From Peptococcaceae bacterium CEB3 (GTDB lineage: Bacteria; Bacillota; Desulfitobacteriia; Desulfitobacteriales; Desulfitobacteriaceae), in the NCBI GenBank assembly GCA_001029295.1, contig LDXJ01000059.1:1-64000 (forward strand): a stretch of 64,000 nucleotides of DNA, in the 5' to 3' direction. How positions within the stretch are numbered: the first letter of the stretch is position 1; each line of letters begins with the position of its first letter. The notes beneath the pieces are model-generated. The model was given only the letters and a program-made list of their open reading frames with translations. It was not told where the DNA came from and did no database searches. Positions 17,409 to 61,420 of this stretch are shown here, in pieces. A program made the translations under genes and the position numbers.

Positions 17409-17485
17409 CGGGGCGTAGCTCAGTTTGGTAGAGCGCTACCTTGGGGTGGTAGAGGCCGCAAGTTCAAATCTTGTCGCTCCGACCA
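17409..17485 (+). tRNA. tRNA-Pro (anticodon GGG)
   Basis: Full cloverleaf: acceptor CGGGGCG/CGCTCCG, D arm GCTC...GAGC, anticodon stem CTACC/GGTAG with loop TTGGGGT (anticodon GGG, G37 as usual for proline tRNAs), T arm GCAAG-TTCAAAT-CTTGT, discriminator A and encoded CCA at 17483-17485. Confidence 0.93.
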
Positions 17486-17540
17486 ATAAAATCTTACCAT
17501 TGGATTGCTTCGTGCATAGGGGTACTTGCTACAGGAGCGG

Positions 17541-17567
17541 AGTTCAAATCTTGTCGCTCCGACCAAT
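17541..17567 (+). repeat. exact copy of the tRNA-Pro 3' end (attachment-site-like)
   Basis: The 27 nt at 17461-17487, covering the T arm, acceptor 3' strand and CCA of tRNA-Pro, recur without mismatch at 17541-17567. Sequence before the copy is not a tRNA 5' half. This is what an integrase attachment scar or a decayed tandem tRNA would look like; no integrase gene remains. Confidence 0.85.
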
Positions 17568-17694
17568 GAAAGCCTTACAGGAAGCGGGTTTGAAGAAAGC
17601 CAGCTTTTATTTATTCCAAAGACAGGATTTTGACCACTGAATTTGACCACAATGGGGATCAGCGTTGACTACATTAGCAGGACAAGATGAAAGA

Positions 17695-17720
17695 CCGGGG
17701 GGTTACTCCCCGGCCTTTTT
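17695..17720 (+). terminator. rho-independent terminator after the tRNA region
   Basis: CCGGGG (17695-17700), loop GGTTACT, CCCCGG (17708-17713), then CCTTTTT. Confidence 0.8.
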
Positions 17721-18193: not shown

Positions 18194-18598
18194 ATGGATA
18201 TGCTCCATGAGATTCATTTACAGACTGAGCAGCAGGATGAAATGGTTGAGATTACGGCTCAGATAGAAAACATTCTTCTTCGGGAGAAGGTCCAAAACGG
18301 GCTCGTCACAGTCTACTGTCCCCATACTACGGCGGGAATAACGATCAATGAAAATGCCGATCCTGACGTCCGGAAGGATTTCCTCCGCCGGCTTGATGAG
18401 GTGTACCCGTGGAAGCGGGCCAAAGATCAGCATTCAGAGGGTAACTCCGCGGCTCACTTGAAAGCGAGCGCGGTCGGAGCATCCCAGACCGTAATTGTCC
18501 GGAACGGGAAATTGCTTCTTGGCCGCTGGCAGGGCATTTACTTTTGCGAATTCGACGGTCCGAGGCCGCGCAGCTATTATGTCAAGATTTACGCCTGA
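18194..18598 (+). CDS. YjbQ/UPF0047 family protein
   Basis: About 134 residues from ATG 18194 (GAGGGAAGG upstream). The family core is clear: [22 protein letters not shown], a central [15 protein letters not shown] metal-site region, and [16 protein letters not shown] near the end. UPF0047/YjbQ proteins have been reported to show thiamine-phosphate synthase side activity; physiological role unsettled. A longer frame to 18089 would add an unconserved leader. It stands alone among debris just right of the tRNA. Confidence 0.9.
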
Positions 18599-18702
18599 AA
18601 AGGTGCGCAGTCTAGGGACCGACGGAAGGCTGGTTTTGGGTCGCGTAGCTATCATGTAAAGATTTACGGGGAGGCGGGGGTGTCGGAACGCCCCGGCTTC
18701 CA

Positions 18703-41137: not shown

Positions 41138-41782
41138 ATGCTGCTTACACCGTTGCGTCCTTTGCTGGAAGCGACCCGACAATATGGCTTTGCCCAGGGG
41201 GCGTTAATGTTAACAGTGTTGTCCAAGTCCAAGCCGTGATTGAGGTGCATGAAATGTTTTGCTTCGCCGCCATATTGCAGGGCGCGGATCTTGCCAATGC
41301 TTTTATAGGCGGAAAAGCGGACTTTATGCACGGAACTGTGGAAGACAGACGCAGGAGGGGCGCTAAGAGAATCGGAGTCGCCGAGGCTGAGCTGGCCAAA
41401 GATCCTCCAACCCCTACCGTTCACCATTTCGATTACGGCAAAGACCTTGAATCACTCAAAGGGGCCACTGACGGCGGCTATACATCAGCGATGATCGATG
41501 GCTCTCAGCTGGGGTTTTCCGAAAATGTGGAACTAACAAGGGAAATCGGAAATCGTTCAATATGCCCATTCCCAGGGGGTTTCGGTGGGAGGCGAACTTG
41601 GTGTCCTTTCCGGGATCAAAGACGACGTTTTTTCTGAGCATTCGACGTGTACCAATCCCTTGAAAGCTGTTGAGCTTTTCCAGAAAATCGACCCGGATTG
41701 TCTGGCGATCTCCTATAGAACAAAGCATGGAATAACTAGGAGGAACGAGCCAAGTAAGAAAGAGGCGGCTTTAGGAGTATGA
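41138..41782 (+). pseudogene. class II aldolase-like gene, broken by frameshifts (copy 1)
   Basis: Starts ATG 41138 after GAAAGGGAG. Compared with the intact copy at 58323, one T is missing in GCGTTAATG (about 41209) and about seven bases are inserted near 41552; each shifts the frame, so no full product can be made. The end still overlaps the permease start. The sequence retains DYGKDLESLK where the intact copy has DHGKDLESLK, so the zinc-ligand His is mutated too. Confidence 0.88.
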
Positions 41783-42657
41783 AGACAGCGACGGTTAGCG
41801 GCATTGTCTCGGCAGCGCTTATGGGTATCCTGCTTAGCCTGGCTAAGATTTGCTTCTCCGGAATGACGGTTGTTCAGTTCATGCTAATCGTGTTCGGTGG
41901 AACGCACTTGCTGTTTTTGGCGATTTTATTAGCGCGTCGGGAAGGACGGGAGATCTGGTCAGCCGGTAGGCACTATCCCGAACTTTATCTTGTAGGTATT
42001 GTCGGAACAGCCTTAAGGTCGTTACAAAATTGGGGATTAGAGCTCAGTTCACCTACCAATGCCGCTATCCTTTTACGGGGAGATTTGCTTTTCAGCCTGG
42101 TCATTGGCTATCTGCTGTGGAAGGAAAAGCTTCATCCCTTGGAATGGGTCGGTATGGCAGGAATGCTTGTCGGTGTTAGTTTAGTGCTGCAAATCTCCTG
42201 GGAGAGATTTGGCCTTAGCGCCGGCGGTAATATCTTGATTCTTGGCAGTGCTTTTTTGGTAGCGGTTAATGCTGAAATTATTAAACACAGGTTGGGTCAG
42301 GTGGGAAACATTGTTGTAGCCTATTTTAACTCCGGTATGTCTCTGGTTTTCTTCCTAGCAGGGGCTTTCCTTACAGGGGCGCTAAACACGCTGCCAAAGA
42401 TCGGTATCTCGGCCTGGGTCCTGGCGTGCACGGGTATTATACTGCAGGTAGTCCAGTATCTGTGCTATTATCGCTCGTTGGAAGGGCTTCCGACGTGGTT
42501 GGTGCGAGTAGTTCATCTAATAACGCCGATTATGGCAATGGTGACCAGCGCCTGGTGGCTGAATGAAAGGATCAGTGTGGCCCAAGTTTTAGGAATGTTG
42601 GTCGTGGGCGGTGGGATTATACTTGTTTATACGGGGCATGTCAAGAGTTGTGTCTAA
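41779..42657 (+). CDS. DMT-superfamily (EamA) permease, copy 1
   Basis: 292 residues, about ten transmembrane helices arranged as two EamA halves. ATG 41779 overlaps the stop of the broken aldolase gene by four bases; AGGAG lies just upstream. Exporter or importer of a small metabolite; substrate unknown. Nearly identical to the protein at 58958. Confidence 0.88.
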   Translation: MKTATVSGIVSAALMGILLSLAKICFSGMTVVQFMLIVFGGTHLLFLAILLARREGREIWSAGRHYPELYLVGIVGTALRSLQNWGLELSSPTNAAILLRGDLLFSLVIGYLLWKEKLHPLEWVGMAGMLVGVSLVLQISWERFGLSAGGNILILGSAFLVAVNAEIIKHRLGQVGNIVVAYFNSGMSLVFFLAGAFLTGALNTLPKIGISAWVLACTGIILQVVQYLCYYRSLEGLPTWLVRVVHLITPIMAMVTSAWWLNERISVAQVLGMLVVGGGIILVYTGHVKSCV

Positions 42658-42779
42658 AAACCGTATCTAGCTAGAACCGAACCTTTAGGGCCAAACCTCT
42701 AGAATCTGCTGCCGGAATTCATTCGGAGGTACGTAAAATATCATTATACGTAAAATAACATTAAAGGAGAAGACGGACG

Positions 42780-44219
42780 ATGGTAAAAGAGATCAAAGAG
42801 TCGCTTTTCATTGACGGAAGATGGGTAGAGCCGATTGGGAAAAAGAGTAAGGGGATAAAGAATCCTGCAACCGGTAAAGTTTTTTGTGAGATCGGCTACG
42901 GTGAAGCAAGTGATGCGCTAGCTGCTGTAGAAGCAGCGCAGGCAGCTTTTGACTCATGGTCTGTAAAATCGGTCCGGGCAAGAGCCGATATCCTAAATAA
43001 GGTTGCAGACCTGTTAAGAGAAAGGGCGAACGAAATTGCTCGAGTTCTAGCGGCGGAATCTGGTAAACCTGTTCCTCAGGCGGTTGGCGAAGTTAATTTC
43101 TCAGCGGAATATTTCCAGTGGTTTGCAGAAGAAGTGCGGAGACCCTACGGCCAGTATATCCCAAGTGATGCGGCTAACAAACGGCATATCGCCTATATGC
43201 AGCCAAGCGGAGTCGCCCTTTGCCTTTCACCCTGGAATTTCCCGGTTTCTATACAAGCGCGAAAATTGGCACCCGCTTTGGCAGCCGGTTGTACAGTAGT
43301 ATCTCGAGCTTCTGAAACAGCCCCCTTAAGTGTAATAGAATTGTACAAATGCCTGGAGGATGCCGGTATTCCTCAAGGAGTTGCAAATTTAATTCAAGGC
43401 CCTGCCGCGGCCACGACAGAAGCAATGATGAAGCATCCTGCGGTGCGCGTCGTTAGTTTTACTGGCTCAACCCCCGTGGGCCGCAGCTTAATGCGTCAAG
43501 CTGCAGCAGGAATGGTGAGGTTAGCGCTCGAATTAGGGGGTGACGCTCCGTTTATCGTCTTTGACGATGCGGACATTGAAAAGGCCGTTGAAGGCGCGAT
43601 GATTGCCAAATTCCGGAATAACGGACAGTCTTGTATCGCCGCAAACCGTTTCTATATTCATGAAGACGTTTACGATGCCTTTGTGTCCTCTTTTGTCAGC
43701 AAAATTAAACAGATGAAAATCAGCGATCCTTTGACAGAAACCAATCTTGATCTTGGGCCGATGATTAACTTTGAGAGCAAAGCCCGCATAGAAAAACTCA
43801 TTAGTGAAGCAGAAGGGTACGGTGCGAGGCGTGTAACGCCAAAGTTAGAGGTACCTGACGATGGTTATTATGTTGCCCCAGTTATAATGGAGAACGTTCA
43901 GGAGACCATAGCTCTAGCGAGAGAGGAGTTATTTGCCCCGGTCGCGCCACTTTTTACGTTTACAGACGAAGACGAGGTTATCAAAAAAGCGAACAATACC
44001 GATATGGGACTGGCGGCTTACGTGTATACAGAGAGTTTAGCCCGTTCCACCCGCGTGACGGAGTCCCTGAAATTCGGTATAATTGGCCTGAACAATGCAC
44101 TACCATCAGTCGCTTATTCACCTATGGGCGGGGTAAAACAAAGCGGTATCGGACGCGAGGGCGCGAGGGCTGGACTGGAAGAATTTATGGATGTAAAGTA
44201 TGTAGCAACTGAGTTTTAA
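42780..44219 (+). CDS. NAD(P)-dependent aldehyde dehydrogenase (succinate-semialdehyde type), copy 1
   Basis: 479 residues. Catalytic Cys in NNGQSCIAANR, general-base Glu in LELGGDAPF, cofactor-binding SFTGSTPVGR and SPWNFPV. Closest to GabD-like succinate/glutarate semialdehyde dehydrogenases, though related enzymes act on lactaldehyde or glycolaldehyde; the aldolase-linked context fits a short aldehyde. ATG 42780 after AAAGGAGAAG. About 23 residues differ from copy 2 at 59981. Confidence 0.9.
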   Translation: MVKEIKESLFIDGRWVEPIGKKSKGIKNPATGKVFCEIGYGEASDALAAVEAAQAAFDSWSVKSVRARADILNKVADLLRERANEIARVLAAESGKPVPQAVGEVNFSAEYFQWFAEEVRRPYGQYIPSDAANKRHIAYMQPSGVALCLSPWNFPVSIQARKLAPALAAGCTVVSRASETAPLSVIELYKCLEDAGIPQGVANLIQGPAAATTEAMMKHPAVRVVSFTGSTPVGRSLMRQAAAGMVRLALELGGDAPFIVFDDADIEKAVEGAMIAKFRNNGQSCIAANRFYIHEDVYDAFVSSFVSKIKQMKISDPLTETNLDLGPMINFESKARIEKLISEAEGYGARRVTPKLEVPDDGYYVAPVIMENVQETIALAREELFAPVAPLFTFTDEDEVIKKANNTDMGLAAYVYTESLARSTRVTESLKFGIIGLNNALPSVAYSPMGGVKQSGIGREGARAGLEEFMDVKYVATEF

Positions 44220-58322: not shown

Positions 58323-58961
58323 ATGCCGTTTGCACCGTTGCGCCCCTTGCCGGAAACGACCCGCCAATACGGCTTTGCTCAAGGGGCGTTTAATGTCAAC
58401 AGTGTTGTCCAACCCCAAGCCGTGACTGAAGTGCATGAAATGTTCCGTTCTGCCGCCATATTGCAGGGAGCGCATCTCGCTAGTGCTTTTATGGGCGGAA
58501 ATGCGGACTTTGTACACGAAACTGTGCAAGACAGACGCAGGAGGGGTGCTAAGAGAATCGGAACGGCTAAGGCTGAACTAGCCAAAGGTCCTCCAACCCC
58601 TACTGTTTACCATCTCGATCACGGCAAAGACCTTGAATCCCTCAAAGCGGCCATTGACGGCGGCTATATATCAGCGATGATCGATAGCTCTCTGCTGGGG
58701 TTCTCCGAAAATGTAGAGCTGACATGGGAAGTCGTTCAATATGCCCATTCCCATGGGATTTCGGAGGGAGGCGAACTCGGTGTGCTTTGCGGGATCGAAG
58801 GTGATGTTTTTTCTGAGCATTCGACGTGTACCAATCCCTTGAAAGCTGTCGAGCTTTTCCAGAAAACCGACGAGGATTATTTGGTGATCTCTTATAGAAC
58901 AAAGCATGGAATAATTAGGAGGGACAGGCTAAGTAAGAAAGAGGCGGCTTCAGGGGTATGA
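58323..58961 (+). CDS. C-terminally truncated class II aldolase-like protein (copy 2)
   Basis: 212 residues aligned with roughly the first two thirds of class II fructose-bisphosphate aldolases: YGFAQGAFNVNSV, YHLDHGKDLESLKAAID, MIDSSLLGFSENVELT and GGELGVL. The later HGGSG and NV-T(D/E) blocks, which supply a zinc ligand and bind phosphate, are absent, and the usual ISIGTSHG segment reads ISYRTKHG. Intact as an open frame, it overlaps the permease start by four bases. Catalysis looks unlikely; it may persist for translational coupling or another role. ATG 58323 after GGGGAG. Confidence 0.75.
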   Translation: MPFAPLRPLPETTRQYGFAQGAFNVNSVVQPQAVTEVHEMFRSAAILQGAHLASAFMGGNADFVHETVQDRRRRGAKRIGTAKAELAKGPPTPTVYHLDHGKDLESLKAAIDGGYISAMIDSSLLGFSENVELTWEVVQYAHSHGISEGGELGVLCGIEGDVFSEHSTCTNPLKAVELFQKTDEDYLVISYRTKHGIIRRDRLSKKEAASGV

Positions 58962-59845
58962 AGACAGCGACGGTTAGCGGCATTGTCTCGGCAGCGCTTG
59001 TGGGTATCCTGCTTAGCCTGGCGAAGATTTGCTTCTCGGGGATGACGGTTGTGCAGTTCATGCTAATCGTGTTCGGCGGAACGCACTTACTGTTTTTAGG
59101 GATTTTATTAGTGCGTCTGGAAGGACGGGAGATCTTGTCAGCCGGTAGGCACTATCCCGAACTTTATCTTGTAGGTATTGTCGGAACAGCCTTAAGGTCA
59201 TTGCAAAATTGGGGATTAGAGGTCAGTTCACCTACCAATGCCGCTATCCTTTTACGGGGAGATTTGCTTTTCAGCCTGGTCATTGGCTATCTGCTGTGGA
59301 AGGAAAAGCTTCATCCCTTGGAATGGGTCGGTATGGCAGGAATGCTTGTCGGTGTTAGTTTAGTGTTACAAATCTCCTGGGAGAGATTTCGCCTTAGCGC
59401 CGGCGGTAATATCTTGATTCTTGGCAGTGCTTTTTTGGTAGCGGTTAATGCTGAAATTATTAAACACAGATTGGGTCAGGTGGAAAACATTGTAGTAGCC
59501 TATTTTAACTCGGGTATGTCTCTGGTTTTTTTCCTGGCGGGGGCTTTCTTTACAGGGGCGCTAAACACGCTGCCAAAGATCAGTATCTCGGCCTGGGTCC
59601 TGGCGTGCACAGGTATTATACTGCAGGTAGTCCAGTATCTGTGCTATTATCGCTCGTTGGAAGGACTTCCGACGTGGTTGGTGCGAGTAGTTCATCTAAT
59701 AACGCCGATTATGGCTATGGTGACGAGCGCCTGGTGGCTGCATGAAAAGATTAGTATGGCTCAAATTTTAGGAATGTTGGTCGTGGGCGGCGGGATTATG
59801 CTTGTTTATACCGGGCATGTCAAGAGTTGCGCCGAGAACCCGTGA
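58958..59845 (+). CDS. DMT-superfamily (EamA) permease, copy 2
   Basis: 295 residues, ten predicted helices, two EamA repeats. Differs from copy 1 by scattered substitutions and three extra C-terminal residues (ENP). ATG 58958 overlaps the aldolase-like gene. Confidence 0.88.
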   Translation: MKTATVSGIVSAALVGILLSLAKICFSGMTVVQFMLIVFGGTHLLFLGILLVRLEGREILSAGRHYPELYLVGIVGTALRSLQNWGLEVSSPTNAAILLRGDLLFSLVIGYLLWKEKLHPLEWVGMAGMLVGVSLVLQISWERFRLSAGGNILILGSAFLVAVNAEIIKHRLGQVENIVVAYFNSGMSLVFFLAGAFFTGALNTLPKISISAWVLACTGIILQVVQYLCYYRSLEGLPTWLVRVVHLITPIMAMVTSAWWLHEKISMAQILGMLVVGGGIMLVYTGHVKSCAENP

Positions 59846-59846
59846 T

Positions 59847-59916
59847 CCAGAACCAAACCTCCAGAACCAAACCTCCAGAACCAAACCTCCAGAACAAAGC
59901 CTCTAAAACAAAACCT
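59847..59916 (+). repeat. 14-bp minisatellite, five units
   Basis: CCAGAACCAAACCT is repeated exactly three times from 59847, followed by two diverged units to 59916. Copy 1 of the duplication has only single-unit-like traces here, so the array expanded after duplication. Confidence 0.9.
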
Positions 59917-59980
59917 CTAGAATGTACTGCCGGAATTCATCCGGAAGCACATGAAATACCATTAAAGGAGAAGACGGACG

Positions 59981-61420
59981 ATGGTAAAAGAGATTAGAGA
60001 GTCGCTTTTCATTAACGGAAGATGGGTAGAGCCGATTGGGAAAAAGAGTAAGGGGATCAGTAATCCTGCAACCGGTAAGATCTTTTATGAGATCGGCTAC
60101 GGTGAAGCAAGTGATGCGCTAGCCGCCGTAGAAGCAGCGCAGGCAGCTTTTGACTCATGGTCTGTAAAATCGGTCCGGGCAAGAGCCGATATCCTAAATA
60201 AGGTTGCAGACCTGTTAAGGCAAAGGGCGAACGAAATTGCTCGAGTTCTAGCGGCGGAATCTGGTAAACCTGTTCCTCAGGCGGTTGGCGAAGTTAATTT
60301 CTCAGCGGAATATTTCCAGTGGTTTGCAGAAGAGGTACGGAGACCCTACGGCACGTATATCCCAAGCGACGCGGCTAACAAACGGCACATCGCCTATACG
60401 CAGCCAAGCGGAGTCGCCCTTTGCCTTTCACCCTGGAATTTCCCGGTTTCTATACAAGCGCGAAAATTGGCACCCGCTTTGGCAGCCGGTTGTACAGTAG
60501 TATCTCGAGCTTCTGAAACAGCCCCCTTAAGTGTAATAGAATTGTACAAATGCCTGGAGGATGCCGGTATTCCTCAAGGAGTTGCAAATTTAATTCAAGG
60601 CCCTGCCGCGACCACGACAGAAGCAATGATGAAGCATCCTGCGGTGCGCGTCGTTAGTTTTACTGGCTCAACCCCCGTGGGCCGCAGCTTAATGCGTCAA
60701 GCTGCCGCAGGGATGGTGAGGTTAGCGCTCGAATTAGGGGGTGACGCTCCGTTTATCGTCTTTGACGATGCGGACATTGAAAAGGCCGTTGAAGGCGCGA
60801 TGATTGCCAAATTCCGGAATAACGGACAGTCTTGTATCGCCGCAAACCGTTTCTACATTCACGAAGGCGTTTACCAGGCATTTGTGTCTTCTTTTGTCAG
60901 CAAAATTAAACAGATGAAAATCGGCGATCCTTTGACAGAAACCAATCTTGATCTCGGGCCGCTGATTAACTTTGAGAGCAAGACCCGCATAGAAAAAATC
61001 ATTAGTGAAGCAGAAGGATACGGGGCAAGGCATGTAACACCTAAGTTAGAGGTACCTGACGGCGGTTATTATGTAGCCCCAGTTATAATGGAGAACGTTC
61101 CGGAGACCACAGCTTTAGCAAAGGAGGAGTTATTCGCCCCGGTTGCGCCGCTTTTCATGTTTTCGGACGAAGACGAGGTTATCAAAAAAGCGAACAATAC
61201 CGATATGGGACTGGCGGCTTATGTGTATACCGAGAGTTTGGCTCGTTCCACTCGCCTGACGGAGTCGCTGAAATTCGGTATAATTGGCCTGAACAATGCA
61301 CTGCCATCTGTTGCTTATTCACCTATGGGCGGAGTAAAACAAAGCGGTATCGGACGTGAGGGCGCGAGAGCTGGACTGGAAGAATTTATGGATGTAAAGT
61401 ATGTAGCGACTGAATTTTGA
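59981..61420 (+). CDS. aldehyde dehydrogenase (succinate-semialdehyde type), copy 2
   Basis: 479 residues; catalytic Cys in GQSCIAANR and Glu in LELGGDAPF retained. About 23 residues differ from copy 1 at 42780, mostly conservative and concentrated in residues 1-120 and 290-410. ATG 59981 after AAAGGAGAAG. Confidence 0.9.
   Translation: MVKEIRESLFINGRWVEPIGKKSKGISNPATGKIFYEIGYGEASDALAAVEAAQAAFDSWSVKSVRARADILNKVADLLRQRANEIARVLAAESGKPVPQAVGEVNFSAEYFQWFAEEVRRPYGTYIPSDAANKRHIAYTQPSGVALCLSPWNFPVSIQARKLAPALAAGCTVVSRASETAPLSVIELYKCLEDAGIPQGVANLIQGPAATTTEAMMKHPAVRVVSFTGSTPVGRSLMRQAAAGMVRLALELGGDAPFIVFDDADIEKAVEGAMIAKFRNNGQSCIAANRFYIHEGVYQAFVSSFVSKIKQMKIGDPLTETNLDLGPLINFESKTRIEKIISEAEGYGARHVTPKLEVPDGGYYVAPVIMENVPETTALAKEELFAPVAPLFMFSDEDEVIKKANNTDMGLAAYVYTESLARSTRLTESLKFGIIGLNNALPSVAYSPMGGVKQSGIGREGARAGLEEFMDVKYVATEF

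Follow-up and report, generated by a model that had tools for sequence, protein, structure and literature searches.

The window, that is the whole 64-kb stretch of DNA from Peptococcaceae bacterium CEB3 analyzed in this study, contains a single tRNA gene. It was identified by ARAGORN as an intact tRNA-Pro(GGG) on the forward strand (17409-17485; Rfam RF00005, 64.4 bits) and constitutes an attB-type target. To the left of this gene lies the conserved order der-plsY-gpsA-spoIVA-pheB, named by reading of the sequences. A pair of short direct repeats begins within the tRNA gene, and to the right of this pair sugar-acid catabolism genes are found together with two open reading frames read by eye as DDE transposases.

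The first repeat copy (17461-17487, forward strand) is part of the tRNA gene and extends from the T arm to the CCA end plus AT. The second copy (17541-17567, forward strand) is an orphan tRNA-Pro 3'-fragment, which we read as an attR scar. Both are identical over 27 bp and 80 bp apart from start to start, as described in the first-pass annotation, and match at 30 of 31 positions when extended. Only these 27-31 bp are duplicated in the window, and the DNA between the copies is single-copy. For an exact pair of 27-mers in 64 kb, a simple calculation gives an expectation of about 1e-7, and the whole draft genome (5.3 Mb in 64 contigs, searched with up to 3 mismatches) contains no other copies than these two. 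Hence, the repeat downstream of tRNA-Pro(GGG) is real and not a product of chance. The same search bears on the earlier expectation of a further copy to the right that would define a genomic island. No third copy was present genome-wide at this threshold, and no distal or degenerate copy was detected toward the right edge or at the far edge of the variable region, the best match on the contig having 7 of 24 positions mismatched. The 80-bp spacing holds no integrase gene, and the 243-kb contig C59 as a whole lacks a PF00589 integrase, in agreement with the earlier statement that the integrase is gone.

The nearest named genome is that of Acididesulfobacillus acetoxydans (NZ_LR746496.1; PheB 99% identical), an acidophilic sulfate reducer (PMC8982180). 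In this species, too, tRNA-Pro is followed by the spacer and a second copy, with different DNA downstream. The same arrangement, again with unrelated downstream DNA, was found in two genomes (G003 and G011) of another genus of the family, g3. The spacing between the copies is nearly constant in the four genomes (80, 78, 79 and 76 bp), and G003 has two downstream copies, with a further 60-bp tandem duplication of the copy. Searching for the exact hairpin pattern described below, copy 2 was detected in 4 of 73 genomes of the order, always behind tRNA-Pro(GGG), and was absent from the other 69; among 398 genomes of a phylum sample the only hit was this genome itself. None of the genomes carrying the pair contains an intact second copy of tRNA-Pro. 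In genus g3, copy 2 is followed by CCA, approximately 20 nt and a CCGCAAA terminator, which is what directly follows tRNA-Pro in other relatives; in G003, copy 2 precedes the region with the terminator, which in relatives without the pair comes straight after tRNA-Pro. Thus, the extra DNA has the appearance of an insertion separating two tRNA tails, as expected of an attL/attR pair. In the comparison with related genomes proposed in the first-pass annotation, a pattern like that of an empty site is seen for g3 versus other relatives, and none is seen within Acididesulfobacillus, both genomes of which carry the pair. A pheB tree did not resolve g3 as sister to Acididesulfobacillus, so that copy 2 may have arisen once or repeatedly.

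One base pair of the T stem differs between the two Acididesulfobacillus genomes, being A-T in the window and C-G in A. acetoxydans, in both copies of each genome. The two copies are thus alike within each genome, and between the genomes both differ identically. The DNA between the copies falls into two parts. The spacer (17488-17520, forward strand) is variable, with weak similarity to A. acetoxydans (18 of 35 positions, shuffle p 0.0055) and 18 of 34 aligned positions alike between the two g3 genomes; the middle of the spacer is poorly kept between the window and A. acetoxydans, although of the four-fold sites of pheB only 20 of 63 differ. It is followed by a conserved 20-bp flank, GGTACTTGCTACAGGAGCGG (17521-17540, forward strand), which is shared by Acididesulfobacillus and g3 although their spacers are not. 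The flank is retained at 19 of 20 positions in A. acetoxydans and at 16 of 20 in the two g3 genomes (consensus GGTAyTyGmTAmAGGAGCGG, 16 to 20 of 20), and occurs once per genome in the genomes tested. Its GGAGCG (17534-17539) is the exact complement of CGCTCC within copy 2 (17555-17560), so that copy 2 sits in a hairpin (17534-17560, forward strand) that is also found in A. acetoxydans and g3. GGAGCG differs by one base from GGGGCG, the acceptor strand of tRNA-Pro itself. RNA folding adds little support beyond shuffled sequences, with z-scores of -0.98 to -1.87, and of -0.60 for the whole tRNA-Pro trailer; the A-T variant of the T stem makes the hairpin weaker. An Rfam search assigned no family to copy 2 with its flank. 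A resemblance of the flank to the anticodon and variable region of the tRNA was also considered, and was judged by eye to be at chance level.

Evidence for recurrent integration at this tRNA gene comes from the relatives. In at least 7 of them (G027, G030, G006, G033, G023, G028 and G032, from genus g6 and others), partial 3'-copies of tRNA-Pro(GGG) share a contig with the intact gene and lie 6-63 kb away from it. These partial copies begin at the anticodon loop, not at the T loop. Furthermore, the DNA right after tRNA-Pro reads by eye as the inverted 3'-end of a tyrosine integrase in several relatives. Judged by these sequences, the tRNA-Pro(GGG) beside pheB is a true hot spot for tyrosine integrases within the order, and its recognition as an integrase target from the window alone is well supported. 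Across the order, the T stem of tRNA-Pro(GGG) occurs as C-G, A-T and T-A alleles. In G023 and G035 the allele of the intact gene differs from that of the partial copy, as if integration swaps T arms. Another genome of the order contains two full-length tRNA-Pro matches 219 bp apart (G039:C67:11983-12279), a candidate tandem duplication.

The DNA immediately following copy 2 also bears signs of integration. A module at 17568-17608 (forward strand), which holds a terminator-like hairpin (17580-17608), is common to the tRNA-Val(CAC) and tRNA-Ala(CGC) loci. It is followed by tandem TTTTGACCACT / TTTGACCACAA direct repeats (17628-17654, forward strand), read as arm-type integrase sites, and by a second terminator-like hairpin (17695-17713, forward strand) as the last conserved part. 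The whole segment 17568-17713 has matches at other places in this genome, behind tRNA-Val(CAC), tRNA-Ala(CGC) and a half tRNA-Val, as well as in A. acetoxydans behind tRNA-Ala and two half tRNAs. In A. acetoxydans, tRNA-Ala(CGC) harbors an intact element of 16,059 bp (G001:C1:3374000-3392000). Its identical core measures 92 bp, starting in the anticodon stem and including the terminator hairpin, and an integrase matching PF00589 and PF14659 is encoded next to the half tRNA. The element also encodes resolvase, sigma-factor and CHC2 zinc-finger proteins. TTGACCAC repeats are found at both ends of this element as well as at 17628-17654 of the window, and the left end of the element, comprising terminator module, repeats and second hairpin, closely resembles 17568-17713. 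In contrast to the intact 16-kb element with its integrase, the left end alone is recognized at tRNA-Pro. The terminator module and the TTGACCAC repeats are found at a fixed distance from the tRNA tail, as in the tRNA-Ala/Val/Pro element family. The left end of an element of this family thus immediately adjoins copy 2, here as well as in A. acetoxydans. The occurrence of the same module after tRNA-Val, tRNA-Ala and tRNA-Pro suggests target switching by one element family, which at Val and Ala duplicates the tRNA from the anticodon loop and not from the T loop.

Two other readings of this segment were abandoned. The module at 17568-17608 is not a plain tRNA terminator, as the homology continues through the arm repeats and the second hairpin, and an interpretation of the TTGACCAC repeats as IS21-like ends was dropped because these repeats also turned up at either end of the integrase element. 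The 92-bp attachment core in A. acetoxydans includes the tRNA terminator; hence tRNA-Ala keeps a terminator after integration. In this genome, contig C18 (13,130-13,260) contains a half tRNA-Val(CAC) with the element left end and contig C62 an intact tRNA-Val with the same module. These are ends of same-family elements; no relative of the A. acetoxydans tRNA-Ala integrase is encoded on C18. Viral contigs, phages and plasmids yielded ordinary tRNA-Pro matches only, and nothing related to the flank, the module, the arm repeats or the integrase.

Nucleotide synteny with A. acetoxydans extends to 17,701 and is restored from 236,098 of contig C59 onward. The interval between the two synteny blocks comprises 218 kb here (17,702-236,097, of which 17702-64000 is in the window) versus 10.7 kb in A. 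acetoxydans. A large variable region thus does begin at the tRNA-Pro locus, and the switch in gene content reported in the first-pass annotation is real, being visible in both gene content and synteny. The pair does not bound this region: it is present in both Acididesulfobacillus genomes, whereas the region is not, hence the pair must have existed before today's boundary and is not the limit of the 218 kb. The catabolic block at approximately 19.4-57.9 kb of the window is collinear with a block located about 1.1 Mb away in A. acetoxydans (about 69-92% identity). The supposed island is therefore not simply newly gained cargo. For a 20-kb piece from the middle of the interval, matches in the A. 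acetoxydans genome are limited to short, scattered stretches. The region was shaped both by rearrangement and by gain or loss.

With moderate confidence, we interpret the pair as an old integration scar at the tRNA-Pro hot spot, copy 2 being the orphan attR of an element now reduced to approximately 50 bp. An element that entered tRNA-Pro by recombination in the T loop would have brought a replacement for the tRNA tail, now copy 1, and the original tail would have been left as copy 2, preceded by the core arm of that element (the GGAGCG inverted repeat). Nearly all of this element would since have been lost. A second element family left its end, terminator module and TTGACCAC arm repeats, immediately after copy 2. 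Both integration events would predate the split from A. acetoxydans, and the 218-kb region would have been gathered or rearranged later. Origin of copy 2 by integration in the T loop and loss of the element by deletion are what we infer from several observations: the extra DNA between two tRNA tails in g3, the partial tRNA-Pro copies and the apparent integrase 3'-end after the tRNA in relatives, the similarity of the DNA after copy 2 to the left end of the intact A. acetoxydans element, and the restriction of copy 2 and hairpin to tRNA-Pro(GGG). Searches of this genome, of related genomes and of viral contigs revealed no intact element that carries the flank of copy 2, which makes the parent element a hypothetical one. 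A spacing kept at 76-80 bp requires that almost the whole element was deleted once in an ancestor, or that it was tiny by nature. Against a scar speaks that the copies made by other elements at tRNA-Pro, and by the family at Val and Ala, start in the anticodon loop and not in the T loop. Moreover, the concerted T-stem change of both copies between sister species is not explained by a passive scar, nor does the attR reading explain the conservation of the 20-bp flank and hairpin between genera with diverged spacers. Both facts must be accommodated by any account of copy 2.

Concerted change is usual among tandem tRNA genes, and would fit if copy 2 were the remains of a second, tandem tRNA-Pro which lost its D and anticodon arms and was kept like the first by recombination. 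The near-identity of GGAGCG, which pairs with CGCTCC, to the tRNA acceptor strand and the candidate tandem genes in G039 agree with this explanation, but the flank before copy 2 is unlike a tRNA leader by eye and an intact second gene is missing wherever the pair occurs, and we regard it as rather unlikely. The retention of flank and copy 2 between two genera can also be accounted for if they form a selected part of the tRNA-Pro transcript, i.e. a tRNA-like 3'-trailer minihelix acting in processing or as a decoy. Where the T-stem pair of the tRNA is C-G or A-T, that of copy 2 is the same, and terminator-like hairpins lie 3' of copy 2, with none reported between it and tRNA-Pro. This we consider unlikely in view of folding energies close to those of shuffled sequences, the weakening of the hairpin by the A-T variant, the lack of an Rfam family and the absence from 69 of the 73 genomes. 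A combined version, in which a selected trailer element of two genera is matched to the tRNA tail by ongoing recombination, integrase-driven or by gene conversion, so that tRNA-Pro and fragment evolve in concert, seems equally improbable to us.

Simple slippage or duplication of a short tRNA segment, involving no integrase, might be invoked on account of the additional 60-bp duplication in G003. It is very unlikely, because in the window only the 27-31 bp themselves and not the DNA between them are duplicated and because the locus is a hot spot of integration and has the end of an element next to it. The idea that the pair marks a present genomic island with its distal copy to the right draws on the start of the 218-kb region less than 150 bp from copy 2. 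With no third copy genome-wide or at the right edge, and the same pair in A. acetoxydans without that region, this idea is contradicted by the genome comparison and is very improbable. Overall, the first interpretation was thus borne out in its observation and in part in its explanation.

Sublocations of tyrosine-integrase attachment sites within tRNA genes were reportedly described by Williams in 2002. The orphan attR proposed here shares with such sites the 3' tRNA fragment downstream, the arm-type direct repeats of an element end and integrase elements at the same tRNA in relatives. In contrast to these sites, the fragments are 80 bp apart with no integrase or element between them, and the copy begins at the T arm whereas other elements at this locus begin at the anticodon arm. 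A tRNA 3'-end repeated downstream is also known from the RtT repeats behind tyrT of Escherichia coli, and one relative has a further tandem unit here. Unlike RtT, the repeat has no Rfam match and is tied to an integration hot spot. This kind of site is already known; the unusual detail is the concerted change of the tRNA and the downstream fragment. If that change is driven by integrase traffic, mobile elements would exchange T-arm alleles of tRNAs. Furthermore, a short tRNA repeat found where gene content changes is not necessarily the mark of a present island, as the pair is shared by sister species but the island-scale difference is not.

Two other repeats were observed to the right of the pair. 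A 30-bp imperfect direct repeat (87%; 18564-18593 and 18639-18668, 75 bp apart) spans the end of a UPF0047 reading frame, which suggests a partial duplication of the 3'-end of that gene. A two-gene block, by sequence reading an EamA-like transporter and an aldehyde dehydrogenase, is present twice, 17 kb apart (41779-44219 and 58958-61420), and also matches two places in the collinear block of A. acetoxydans.
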